Positions 43,853-46,995 of a stretch of 64,000 nucleotides of DNA are shown one piece after another. Within the stretch, counting starts at the first letter, position 1, and every line of letters begins with the position of its first letter. This DNA is from Hyunsoonleella flava (GTDB lineage: Bacteria; Bacteroidota; Bacteroidia; Flavobacteriales; Flavobacteriaceae): NCBI RefSeq assembly GCF_004310325.1, contig NZ_SIRT01000005.1, positions 62,001 to 126,000 on the forward strand, in the 5' to 3' direction. Made by a program: the position numbers and the translations under genes. A model generated the notes under the pieces. That model was not told where the DNA came from, did not search any database, and worked only from the letters and a program-made list of their open reading frames with translations.

Positions 43853-44596
43853 TTGCAAATCCCTTTTGAACCACAATTATTCGGTTATAACATAAACATT
43901 CACTTGGTTTTAGAGTATTTGGCGTTCTTTTTGGCGTTTAGATATTATGTTATTCTACGGCGAAAATCGAAAGACCATATTTCGTCAAACAATCGTTTAT
44001 CCATCATTCTGGGGGCAGCTTTAGGCGCTTTAATTGGTTCTCGCGTAGTTGGTATTTTGGAAAACCCTGTGTTTGAGTGGTCGCAACAAAACATCGTTCA
44101 ACTGCTAAACGCCAAAACCATTATGGGTGGTTTGTTTGGTGGACTTTTAGGTGTTGAGCTTGCTAAAAAATATATTGGCGAAACCCAATCATCAGGAGAT
44201 TTGTTTGTGTTTCCTATTATTTTGGGCATTTTTATTGGCCGTATTGGATGCTTTTTATCTGGCATTAATGAATTTACCTATGGTAAGGAAACCGCTTTTT
44301 TTACAGGAATGGATTTGGGCGATGGTGTATTACGGCACCCAACATCTTTATATGAATTGGTGTTTTTAGTTTTACTCTTCTTTGGTTTGAAACGACTACA
44401 AAACAGCCCCAGCTTAATAAATGGCGACCTCTTTAAATGGTTTATGATTTTGTACTTTGGGTTTCGCTTTTGTATTGAATTTTTAAAACCAAATGTATTT
44501 TATGCATTTGGGTTGAGTACAATCCAAATTTTATGTATAATTTGTGTGTTCTATTACAATAAATTCATCTTTCAAAAACTAAAACATGCCCGTTAG
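43853..44596 (+). CDS. Lgt-like diacylglyceryl transferase paralogue lacking the usual His
   Basis: A 247-residue protein with about seven membrane helices and the Lgt layout. It has FLAFRYYVILRR, the membrane motif TIMGGLFGGLLGVELA, GRIGCFLSGINEFTYG, RHPTSLYELVF and FGFRFCIEFLKP. In true Lgt the third region reads roughly FHGGLLG with an essential His, and the fourth GRxGNFING. Here the His is Phe and both Asn are replaced (Cys, Ser), so it is probably not the cell's main prolipoprotein Lgt. The start is TTG at 43853 (QIPFEPQLFGYNINIH); no upstream ATG is in frame. It overlaps the radical SAM gene by 11 bp. Confidence 0.8.
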   Translation: MQIPFEPQLFGYNINIHLVLEYLAFFLAFRYYVILRRKSKDHISSNNRLSIILGAALGALIGSRVVGILENPVFEWSQQNIVQLLNAKTIMGGLFGGLLGVELAKKYIGETQSSGDLFVFPIILGIFIGRIGCFLSGINEFTYGKETAFFTGMDLGDGVLRHPTSLYELVFLVLLFFGLKRLQNSPSLINGDLFKWFMILYFGFRFCIEFLKPNVFYAFGLSTIQILCIICVFYYNKFIFQKLKHAR

Positions 44597-45980
44597 AAAA
44601 TACACCTATTACGATTTTACTCTAAGCCTCTGCCCTGAGTGTTTAAAACGTGTAGACGCAAAAATTGTGTTTGAAAATGGTAATGTGTATATGCTGAAAC
44701 GCTGCAATGAGCATGGAAATTCTAAAGTTTTGATTGCGGACGATATTGAGTACTACAAAAACATTAGAAACTACAATAAACCGAGCGAAACACCATATAA
44801 ATTTAACACACAAACGCACTATGGTTGCCCCTATGATTGTGGCTTGTGCCCCGACCATGAGCAGCACTCGTGCTTGACGGTTGTAGAGGTTACAGACCGC
44901 TGTAATTTAACGTGCCCGACGTGTTATGCGGGATCGTCGCCAACTTATGGGAGGCATCGCACTTTGGATGAAGTGAAAGCGATGTTGGATACTATTGTAC
45001 GGAACGAAAAGGAACCTGATGTGGTGCAAATTTCGGGCGGTGAACCCACGATTCATCCACAGTTTTGGGAGATTATGGATTATGCGAAATCCTTACCGAT
45101 TAGGCATTTGATGTTGAATACCAACGGGATAAAAATTGCTAGGGATTTTGCTTTTGCGCAACGCTTAAAAAGTTATGCTCCCGATTTTGAAATCTACTTA
45201 CAGTTTGATTCGTTTGAGAATAGTGTGTTGCAAGAATTGCGTGGAGCGGATTTGTGGGATATTCGAGTACAGGCGTTGGATAATTTGAATGCCTTGAACT
45301 TATCGACCACCTTGGTAGTCACGCTTCAAAAAGGATTGAATGACCATGAGATTGGAAAAATTATTGACTATGCTTTGCAACAAAAGTGTGTGCGTGGAGT
45401 GACGTTTCAGCCCACACAAATTGCTGGCCGTTTAGATAATTTTAATCCTGAAACGGATAGGATGACCTTAACGGAAGTACGACGCAAGATTATGGAACAA
45501 ACGGATATTTTTACGGGTGACGATTTATTGCCCGTACCTTGTAATCCTGATGCTTTGGTGATGGGTTATGCCTTAAAATTGGATGGCGAGGTGTTTCCGT
45601 TAACGCGCTATATTAACCCAAATGATTTGCTAGACAACAGTAAAAACACCATTATTTATGAGCAGGATGAACAGCTGCATGGTAAAATGATTGAGCTGTT
45701 TAGCACCGGAAATTCAGTGGAAGTTGCTGAGGAAAATCTAAAAAGTATTATGTGCTGCTTACCAAATATTGATGCGCCAAATCTGGGTTACGATAATTTA
45801 TTTCGTATTATTATCATGCAATTTATTGATGCTTATAACTTTGATGTGCGTGCCATAAAAAAATCCTGCGTGCATATTGTGGATAAGGATAACAAAATTA
45901 TTCCGTTTGAAACCATGAATTTATTGTATCGGGATGATAAGCGGGCGCGATTGGAGGAATTGAAAAATGGGGTTTTATGA
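44586..45980 (+). CDS. Radical SAM enzyme with extra Cys clusters (MJ0619/Tes-like)
   Basis: 464 residues. The SAM-cluster motif is RCNLTCPTCYAG (Cys106, 110, 113), with ISGGEPTIHP after it. Before it lie CPEC (16-19), Cys40 and GCPYDCGLCPD (Cys81, 85, 88), a second CX3CX2C, then Cys96; later Cys include LPVPCNPD and IMCCLPN. This N-terminal arrangement is that of the MJ0619 family, whose archaeal members (tetraether synthase) and bacterial relatives join lipid alkyl chains. A lipid or lipoprotein substrate is inferred from that and from the overlapping Lgt-like gene. It overlaps the next gene by 4 bp. Confidence 0.85.
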   Translation: MPVRKYTYYDFTLSLCPECLKRVDAKIVFENGNVYMLKRCNEHGNSKVLIADDIEYYKNIRNYNKPSETPYKFNTQTHYGCPYDCGLCPDHEQHSCLTVVEVTDRCNLTCPTCYAGSSPTYGRHRTLDEVKAMLDTIVRNEKEPDVVQISGGEPTIHPQFWEIMDYAKSLPIRHLMLNTNGIKIARDFAFAQRLKSYAPDFEIYLQFDSFENSVLQELRGADLWDIRVQALDNLNALNLSTTLVVTLQKGLNDHEIGKIIDYALQQKCVRGVTFQPTQIAGRLDNFNPETDRMTLTEVRRKIMEQTDIFTGDDLLPVPCNPDALVMGYALKLDGEVFPLTRYINPNDLLDNSKNTIIYEQDEQLHGKMIELFSTGNSVEVAEENLKSIMCCLPNIDAPNLGYDNLFRIIIMQFIDAYNFDVRAIKKSCVHIVDKDNKIIPFETMNLLYRDDKRARLEELKNGVL

Positions 45981-46186
45981 AAAGCTTAAATGATGATACT
46001 TTCCCACTAATATTGATGGGGTTATTCATTTTACTTATTGCATTAACTCCAGCAATTATCATTTCTCTAATAGGTTCTCGCATTAAAATGAGAAGGCCTA
46101 AAACAGCAAAAATCCTTCAAATCATCGCTATTGTTTACACAATAATTGGTTTTGGAACCTGTGGCGTAATTTTAACAAAAATGTAA
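45977..46186 (+). CDS. Small two-helix membrane protein (paralogue 1)
   Basis: 69 residues: helix at about 10-31 (LILMGLFILLIALTPAIIISL), a basic loop (GSRIKMRRPKTAKIL) and a second helix at about 46-67 ending FGTCGVILTKM. It overlaps the radical SAM stop by 4 bp and resembles the next gene, so the two arose by duplication. Function unknown; possibly subunits or regulators of the lipid-modifying operon. Confidence 0.7.
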   Translation: MKSLNDDTFPLILMGLFILLIALTPAIIISLIGSRIKMRRPKTAKILQIIAIVYTIIGFGTCGVILTKM

Positions 46187-46188
46187 TT

Positions 46189-46398
46189 ATGATATACTTA
46201 TTAAGCCCAAATATGGATTTTACCGGTTTGTTCATTATCATTTTACTGATAATGTTTGGACCATCAGTAATATTAGCCATCATTGGATTTAGCTTACTTG
46301 GTAAAAATAAAAAAGCAGCAAAAGTATTGTTTATTATTGCTACTGTGTACCTCATTATTAGCTTAGGTATTTGTGGTGCCCTAATTGCGGGTTTTTAA
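46189..46398 (+). CDS. Small two-helix membrane protein (paralogue 2)
   Basis: 69 residues laid out like its neighbour: hydrophobic helix (FIIILLIMFGPSVILAIIGF), basic loop LLGKNKKAAKVL, second helix ending ISLGICGALIAGF. The shared core is ..P-I-ILAIIG...KxAKxLxIIAxVYxIIxxGxCG. It starts 2 bp after paralogue 1 and ends the operon. Confidence 0.7.
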   Translation: MIYLLSPNMDFTGLFIIILLIMFGPSVILAIIGFSLLGKNKKAAKVLFIIATVYLIISLGICGALIAGF

Positions 46399-46401
46399 AT
46401 A

Positions 46402-46995
46402 TTATTCCAGCTCCACAATTACCTCGTTTTTTCTTTTGATAATTTCAAAAGGCGCGTTATATCCAAAAAAGTAAAAGTTATTGGTGTGCTTTATATTGCT
46501 AGCTTTTAGCGCAGCTACTAATTTTTCCTTATACTCATTTATTTTTTCATCATTTGCCCATCCGCCAAATGTAATGGCGGCTACCTTTTTTGCGGGCATT
46601 TCCTTGAATGTAATAGCGTTATTCGTTGGCTCGGGTAAATCTTCTTTATTAAACTTTCCAGGTACCATAAACATCATGGTACTATTATCTTCAATAGTCA
46701 TTGCTACAGGAGACGTCATTGCTATTTTTTCGTTTTTTTTATTGTCTCCAAAGATATAACCTGCCAAAACTGAAAACCCTTTGCTGGAGGTTTCTTTGTA
46801 ATTCCCTTCGTTAAGTTTTACAGATGTAAACAGTGATGCCTCGTAGTTTCTTATTTCAAAAGTGTCGTAATCCTTAACAACCTCGTAGGGATAGGTTTCT
46901 ATATTACTCTGTATTTTGTAATAATATATAACCTGAACAATTACAAAGATTAATCCTAAAGCACCTAAAATTATTAGTATTGTTTTCATTTTCAT
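46402..46995 (-). CDS. SOUL heme-binding family protein
   Basis: 197 residues: an N-terminal membrane anchor (about 4-26, ILIILGALGLIFVIVQVIYY), then the SOUL beta-barrel with YEVVKDYDTFEIRNYEAS, KIAMTSPVAMT and FFGYNAPFE. A second ATG two codons in (46989) is equally possible. SOUL proteins bind heme or related hydrophobic ligands; the ligand is not shown here. It converges with the small membrane genes, the stops being 3 bp apart. Confidence 0.9.
   Translation of the reverse strand: MKMKTILIILGALGLIFVIVQVIYYYKIQSNIETYPYEVVKDYDTFEIRNYEASLFTSVKLNEGNYKETSSKGFSVLAGYIFGDNKKNEKIAMTSPVAMTIEDNSTMMFMVPGKFNKEDLPEPTNNAITFKEMPAKKVAAITFGGWANDEKINEYKEKLVAALKASNIKHTNNFYFFGYNAPFEIIKRKNEVIVELE

Follow-up and report, generated by a model that had tools for sequence, protein, structure and literature searches.

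Lgt normally attaches a diacylglyceryl group to a cysteine. Lipobox lipoproteins carry an N-terminal signal peptide with a lipobox, in which the residue at position -1 is small. The radical S-adenosylmethionine (SAM) enzyme Tes of M. jannaschii (MJ0619, GDGT-MAS) is described in sections of PMC9433317 as binding lipids and coupling their chains via a carbon-sulfur intermediate. Bacterial homologues of Tes have been put forward, in parts of PMC8941075 and PMC11868695, as unproven makers of branched tetraethers or membrane-spanning lipids. Here we describe a gene cassette of Hyunsoonleella flava in which a paralogue of Lgt stands beside an enzyme of the Tes/TrsS family and two small membrane proteins with a conserved C-terminal cysteine. 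The window analysed is a stretch of 64,000 nucleotides (contig NZ_SIRT01000005.1, positions 62,001 to 126,000 of the forward strand), and the coordinates of the cassette are those of the window. No description of this set of genes was found in the open-licence PMC literature searched.

Gene order and distribution

The cassette consists of four open reading frames (ORFs) on the + strand between positions 43853 and 46398. They encode an Lgt-like protein of 247 amino acids with a TTG start (43853..44596; its N-terminus, M-x-I-P-F, agrees with homologues), a radical SAM protein of 464 amino acids (44586..45980), and two small two-helix membrane proteins of 69 amino acids each (45977..46186 and 46189..46398). 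Successive genes overlap by 11 bp and by 4 bp and are then separated by 2 bp, an arrangement that the ORF coordinates confirm as first annotated. The gene set is not a chance grouping, for it recurs in all 80 close-relative loci described below and across the phylum.

The radical SAM gene was present in 13 of 40 genomes, H. flava included, representing 4 of 29 genera. Scanning named genomes gave at least 507 encoded relatives, and the best 80, which are 88–97% identical and mainly from Flavobacteriaceae by name, were taken for locus analysis. An Lgt-like gene and a small membrane protein gene lie on the same strand as the radical SAM gene in 80 of these 80 loci; the Lgt-like ORF is at least 244 amino acids long in 77 and 94–185 in the other three. 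Taken alone, this linkage adds little, because genes for LepA (69/80), Dus (61/80) and an ABC permease (52/80) are conserved nearby as well. It is the phylum-wide and actinobacterial loci, rather than the 80 close relatives, that carry the case. The flanking genes of ten divergent loci differ, as judged by eye.

Within a sample of 392 Bacteroidota genomes, again including H. flava, clade membership was assigned at 365 bits or more for the radical SAM protein and 250 bits or more for the Lgt-like protein, and the resulting counts depend on these lines and on the few candidates scored per genome (at most four in the radical SAM search and six in the Lgt-like search). The radical SAM clade was found in 31 genomes, with a weaker match in three more, and the Lgt-like clade in 32, namely all 31 radical SAM genomes and one orphan, G055. 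Presence is patchy: some genomes of genus g30 are positive and others negative. In two of the 31 (G072 and G305), the Lgt-like gene and the radical SAM gene are on separate contigs. A small protein with the C-terminal cysteine adjoins one or the other gene in 29 of the 31 genomes, a count made up of 26 of 30 short loci, G302 by inspection, and G159 and G194 in longer loci; the G249 locus is truncated by a contig end. A Fisher test (17/17 versus 2/8, p 1.6e-4) is only indicative, since automatic gene picking missed some small ORFs. Co-occurrence of the two enzyme genes, set beforehand as a test of the initial annotation, is thus phylum-wide and reaches Actinomycetota, which rules out a linkage confined to close relatives.

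Genomes with weaker matches were of more than one kind. G104 and G424 encode Tes-type enzymes (493.8 and 432.3 bits in NCBIfam Tes, with a cut-off of 450), and the Tes-type locus L140 passes that cut-off (NF045702) with 493.8 bits. Beside the enzyme in the Tes-type loci L140 and L142 there is neither an Lgt-like gene nor a small cysteine protein, and the single Lgt of G104 and of G424 is on another contig. G134 has all three parts in a divergent form and was counted outside the 31 and the 32. When LGT matches were counted in 12 genomes, the ten with a cassette enzyme (G134 included) had at least two and the two with a Tes-type enzyme had one. Five weaker Lgt hits of 93–109 bits (G206, G299, G127, G373 and G225) were rejected as housekeeping or other Lgt types and have no radical SAM or small-protein match within 13 kb; at the sixth, in G134, a radical SAM gene and a small cysteine protein adjoin.

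The orphan Lgt-like gene of G055 (L151:6653-7498) has no small cysteine protein seen nearby, and its product carries Gln at position 26, perhaps through relaxed selection. In a divergent cassette, the radical SAM and Lgt-like genes flank a gene for an ICMT/PEMT-type membrane methyltransferase (L139:4784-5377, Pfam ICMT 4.3e-13).

Representatives also occur beyond the phylum. A tblastn search of a plasmid collection returned ten records, and eight neighbourhoods were examined. Four of the eight hold the Lgt-like, radical SAM and small cysteine proteins together. One is from Persicobacter psychrovividus, itself a member of Bacteroidota, and three are from Actinomycetota: M. avium subsp. hominissuis pS2b, M. 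branderi, and Nonomuraea gerenzanensis, whose record of 11.85 Mb is filed as a plasmid. In the remaining four, those of M. vanbaalenii and three haloarchaea, the neighbour of the radical SAM enzyme is a methyltransferase; 13–15 kb of sequence contained no annotated Lgt, and a small protein of this kind was absent within 1.5 kb. A methyltransferase is therefore a second type of partner in the Tes/TrsS enzyme family. Its gene lies directly 3' of the radical SAM gene in L159, L160 and L163 (haloarchaeal plasmids) and L158 (a Mycolicibacterium plasmid). Such a neighbour may not define TrsS, as neither of the two scored, L158 and L159, reaches the TrsS cut-off. The actinobacterial cassettes of two Mycobacterium plasmids (L161 and L164) are close to transposase genes, which suggests that they are mobile. 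Scans of viral contigs gave one remote partial match.

Comparison with Lgt, Tes and TrsS

The Lgt-like protein passes the Pfam LGT cut-off (3.4e-25, 89.2 bits versus 24.9), yet it misses the NCBIfam lgt equivalog cut-offs (40.4 versus 118.9 bits and 41.8 versus 334 bits). Its AlphaFold2 (AF2) model, with a predicted local distance difference test score (pLDDT) of 73, has the Lgt fold, and the top match is E. coli Lgt (5azb; Foldseek E 4e-4). In VIA this entry reaches Z 12.9 with an rmsd of 4.5 over 215 residues, although helical bundles can reach Z of about 13 through their common arrangement. We nonetheless keep the fold call because 5azb stands far above the next entry (Z 6.8) and agrees with the Pfam match. 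A shorter stretch replaces the periplasmic head of the E. coli protein. Elsewhere in the genome is a second, housekeeping Lgt that scores 185.3 bits versus 89.1 for the cassette copy, so that the latter is not the housekeeping copy.

Aligned to E. coli Lgt, the protein retains R143 (R130 here), G154, E202, Y235, R239 (R205) and E243. In contrast, H103 is replaced by Met (M91), N146 by Cys (C133, codon 44249-44251, + strand), N149 by Ser and E151 by Ile, and H17 takes the place of Y26. The first description of the protein, in which the His of the HGG motif and both Asn of GNFING are replaced, was thus correct. We built a tree from 23 Lgt-like proteins (the actinobacterial ones and the orphan included), four housekeeping Lgt proteins and two other Lgt proteins, and a branch supported at 99/99 sets all 23 apart from the others. 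R143, G154, E202, Y235 and R239 are kept in every one of the 23, whereas none of H103, N146 and E151 is retained in any: a hydrophobic residue or Thr stands at 103, and Cys at 146, throughout. Position 26 is His in 20, Tyr in two, and Gln in the orphan. Unlike Lgt, the clade is accompanied by a radical SAM gene in 31 of the 32 phylum genomes that carry it.

For E. coli Lgt, the passages of PMC4728403 on variants report loss of activity upon changes in H103, Y26, R143 or E151, and those of PMC8689077 report that Asn146Ala, Arg143Ala and Arg239Ala abolish or reduce it. As judged from the alignment, the cassette protein keeps the Arg pair expected to bind phospholipid, and not the base used by Lgt. 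We infer either a relocated base, the His at position 26, or a nucleophilic Cys at 146. A different Bacteroidota Lgt type has Tyr at 103 and Cys at 146 (L153:6019-6810 and L152:6061-6804), and its L153 copy lies, by eye, directly upstream of complex I subunit-like genes.

Among solved structures, M. jannaschii MJ0619/Tes (7tol, E 1.2e-71) comes nearest to the radical SAM protein, in which a Pfam scan finds an HMPTM zinc ribbon. The two CX3CX2C motifs, the CPEC and the further cysteines that had been noted initially are all seen: CPEC...C-x2-H (C16, C19, C40, H43), C81-x3-C85-x2-C88 with H91, and C106-x3-C110-x2-C113. The motif set of Tes, taken from part of PMC9433317, comprises a rubredoxin-like CX2C-X20-CX2H, an N-terminal CX3CX2C plus His for an auxiliary cluster, and the radical SAM CX3CX2C, and all three are present here with the same spacing. 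Other conserved cysteines are C96, C319, C390, C391 and C428. Of the NCBIfam models, TrsS scores best, followed by Tes. Neither cut-off is reached (TrsS, NF045646, 333 versus 490 bits; Tes, NF045702, 295.1 versus 450 bits), and the label 'tetraether synthase' is therefore too narrow. Both cassette enzymes thus belong, by their sequences, to known superfamilies, yet neither reaches the cut-offs that define the known functions.

Several residues set the enzyme apart from its relatives. Relative to Tes, it has Ile for Tyr459 and Glu442 for Cys470 (numbering from the alignment), additional cysteines C96 and C319, and other gene neighbours. The labile Met439 beside the C-terminal cluster of Tes aligns pairwise with M411, and the Tes-type enzymes of L140 and L142 have Asp/Glu there. 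H94, C96 and C319 are common to the cassette enzyme and the four methyltransferase-linked enzymes sampled, beside which we saw no annotated Lgt and no small cysteine protein; C96 and C319 were not found in the two Tes-type enzymes sampled. Unlike TrsS, the cassette is without a methyltransferase. The N-terminal cluster cysteines are missing in the actinobacterial members, G134, the three haloarchaeal enzymes and the Tes-type L142. For the radical SAM protein, the AF2 model (pLDDT 54.8) is too poor for clusters or a lipid pocket to be placed.

In a tree of radical SAM proteins, 20 enzymes associated with Lgt are split from the four methyltransferase-linked and two Tes-type enzymes by a branch of moderate support (86/81), with a warning of long branches; of these 20, 18 have the Lgt-like gene nearby and two have it elsewhere in the genome. 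The initial assignment to the MJ0619/tetraether-synthase group consequently holds for the broad MJ0619/Tes/TrsS family, but not for Tes in the strict sense, from whose sampled representatives the cassette enzymes stand apart. Pairwise distances among 20 loci correlate between the Lgt-like and radical SAM proteins (r 0.86, a value reached in 0 of 2000 permutations), which is what joint inheritance of the two genes would produce.

The small membrane proteins

The two paralogues of the window are 46% identical over 54 residues. The first ends in ...IIGFGTCGVILTKM (Cys62 codon 46160-46162) and the second in ...IISLGICGALIAGF (Cys62 codon 46372-46374), and Ile or Thr stands at position -1 relative to this cysteine. 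No Pfam family exceeded its cut-off for the 11 small proteins scanned, both paralogues included. Both strong copies of the small protein in the H. flava genome are at this locus; three weak matches (E 0.04–0.39) were not counted. The initial annotation regarded these proteins as partners of the enzymes. It missed the conserved C-terminal cysteine, which makes them candidate substrates and not merely partners.

In the main cluster of small proteins, all 96 members have a cysteine 4–10 residues from the C terminus in the context [GS]-[LF]-[GS]-x-C, followed directly by G in all but two, and 81 of the 96 have a single cysteine. The alignment of the small proteins (A7) is further invariant only at M1, I49, Y54 and G63. 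In other genera the small proteins are 57–151 amino acids long (one ORF has 368), with two to four predicted helices and little similarity, and have the same ending. At least one cysteine-bearing copy is present in each of the 80 close-relative loci. Among small ORFs that have a hydrophobic tail, a C-terminal cysteine occurs in 103 of the 109 in the cassette position and in 7 of the 35 located elsewhere in these 80 loci, a comparison that is descriptive because the loci are related.

The sequence around the cysteine was analysed in 28 diverse examples. In these, a hydrophobic span of 7–24 residues (median 17.5) leads from the last charge to the cysteine, the stretch before the span is net positive in 26, 25 have G, S or A at -2, and no more than two charged residues come after the cysteine. 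These features resemble those of lipobox lipoproteins in the cationic loop, the hydrophobic span, the mostly small -2 residue and the position of the cysteine near the predicted outer face. In contrast to lipobox lipoproteins, the cysteine is at the C-terminal end of the last helix rather than in an N-terminal signal, no cleavage is expected, and the -1 residue is often Ile, Thr or Val.

Additional copies were seen at some loci. L033, L041, L050, L058 and L061 have extra paralogues without the cysteine in the cassette position, each together with a cysteine-bearing copy. At L052, two more small paralogues with the cysteine ending lie about 5 kb downstream of the cassette (L052:13173-13574), which suggests an expansion of the small proteins.

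A putative lipid-modification system and its alternatives

We tentatively favour, at somewhat less than an even chance, a dedicated three-part lipid-modification system in which the small protein would receive a lipid on its cysteine from the Lgt paralogue, and alkyl chains would be altered or coupled by the radical SAM enzyme. What the sequences establish is the gene set with its co-occurrence, the cysteine in its context and the altered active site of the Lgt paralogue. The acceptor and transferase roles are suggested by conservation and analogy, and radical chemistry on the chains by family membership. The last helix of the small membrane protein, as predicted from hydropathy and charge only, would run outward from a positive and presumably cytoplasmic loop and place the conserved cysteine near the outer face, oriented like that of a lipobox. 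There an Lgt active site could reach it, and the simplest reading makes the small protein the acceptor, the Lgt paralogue the transferase, and the radical SAM enzyme the modifier of the chains, a part that Tes plays for archaeal lipids. The Lgt paralogue would bind phospholipid through its conserved Arg pair and transfer a (diacyl)glyceryl or similar lipid group to the thiol; as the catalytic TM3 His is missing, catalysis may fall to the TM1 His at position 26, the Cys at 146, or both. Either before the lipid is attached or afterwards, the radical SAM enzyme may activate C-H bonds in the alkyl chains, for example to couple or branch the tail ends, or it could act first on free phospholipids. 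The product would be an unusual lipid anchored to a protein. A more specific form of this proposal, in which signal-peptide-independent lipidation of the last-helix cysteine by an Lgt paralogue with a relocated catalytic residue is combined with welding of the lipid tails by the radical SAM enzyme, possibly to give a membrane-spanning product, in Bacteroidota and some Actinomycetota, is in our estimate unlikely.

Several observations weigh against the three-part system. H103 and N146 are needed for the activity of E. coli Lgt, and the paralogue therefore cannot act exactly as Lgt does. Cys at 146 is not unique to the cassette, being present also in both of the other Lgt proteins of the tree, which are without a cassette. 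The radical SAM enzyme scores below the Tes cut-off and has Ile431 in place of Tyr459, which is conserved in archaeal Tes, and as a cytosolic enzyme it would need access to lipid chains whose attachment point is near the outer face. The Lgt-like gene of G055 occurs without a radical SAM gene. No small cysteine protein was found near either gene in G072, and a search of this genome and four others with the small-protein alignment from other genera also gave nothing, which shows nothing by itself. In the 80 close-relative loci, six small ORFs in the cassette position (one of them doubtful) have no cysteine, and the same is true of one of the two small proteins at L131. Finally, the 28 examples in which the context of the cysteine was analysed had been chosen because they bear one.

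That the operon makes or attaches an unusual lipid had been proposed at the outset. The operon is indeed conserved, but coupling of alkyl chains by its radical SAM enzyme would be a role carried over from relatives. The nearest competing explanation is that the product is a free membrane lipid of dimeric, bola or branched type, with the radical SAM enzyme joining or branching acyl chains, the Lgt-like protein moving glyceryl or acyl groups from one lipid to another, and the small proteins serving as a scaffold in which the cysteine is structural. The Tes-family relationship of the enzyme and the phospholipid-binding Arg retained in the Lgt-like protein are consistent with such a lipid, as is the proposal, in part of PMC8941075, that bacterial Tes homologues make membrane-spanning lipids. 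We consider it rather unlikely, because it leaves unexplained a C-terminal cysteine common to otherwise diverse small proteins of two phyla, and because both Tes-type loci sampled in the phylum are without either partner.

Alternatively, the radical SAM enzyme might modify the small protein itself, for instance by joining carbon to sulfur at the cysteine, in the manner of ribosomally synthesized modified peptides, while the Lgt-like protein serves as a phospholipid-binding helper or exporter with no transferase activity. The loss of H103 in 23 of 23 clade members and the tiny dedicated protein adjoining the enzyme would fit this arrangement, and Tes makes a carbon-sulfur intermediate according to part of PMC9433317. 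However, the cysteine is predicted to lie near the outer face, far from a cytosolic enzyme, and the retention of R143, R239, E202 and Y235 in 23 of 23 suggests that lipid chemistry has been kept; direct modification of the protein thus seems improbable to us.

Conserved cysteines in both the small and the Lgt-like proteins could instead form a disulfide or bind a metal in a redox or sensory system that modifies no lipid. This is very doubtful in view of the Lgt fold with its retained lipid-binding residues, and of the single cysteine in most small proteins, which are otherwise nearly devoid of invariant residues. A spare or decaying lgt that came by chance to lie beside an unrelated radical SAM gene, as the loss of catalytic residues might suggest, can practically be dismissed, given the 31/31 co-occurrence and a signature shared by 23 of 23 proteins over two phyla; a spare housekeeping lgt is ruled out by the stronger separate Lgt of the genome and the two or more LGT matches of cassette genomes.

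If the favoured three-part system is correct, Lgt would be used outside lipoprotein maturation, and what would be new, though unproven, is an Lgt-like lipidation system whose partner enzyme and type of candidate acceptor are both new. The cassette is widespread and has defined partners, and a prediction that concerns one residue, that Cys62 of the 69-residue protein bears a lipid, makes the function of this bacterial branch of the Tes family directly testable. It is also a warning that bacterial Tes homologues should not all be counted as tetraether makers.

Immediately downstream of the cassette in H. flava, a member of a family that is not prominent among the neighbours tabulated for the 80 close-relative loci, a SOUL heme-binding family gene, occupies positions 46402-46995 on the opposite strand.

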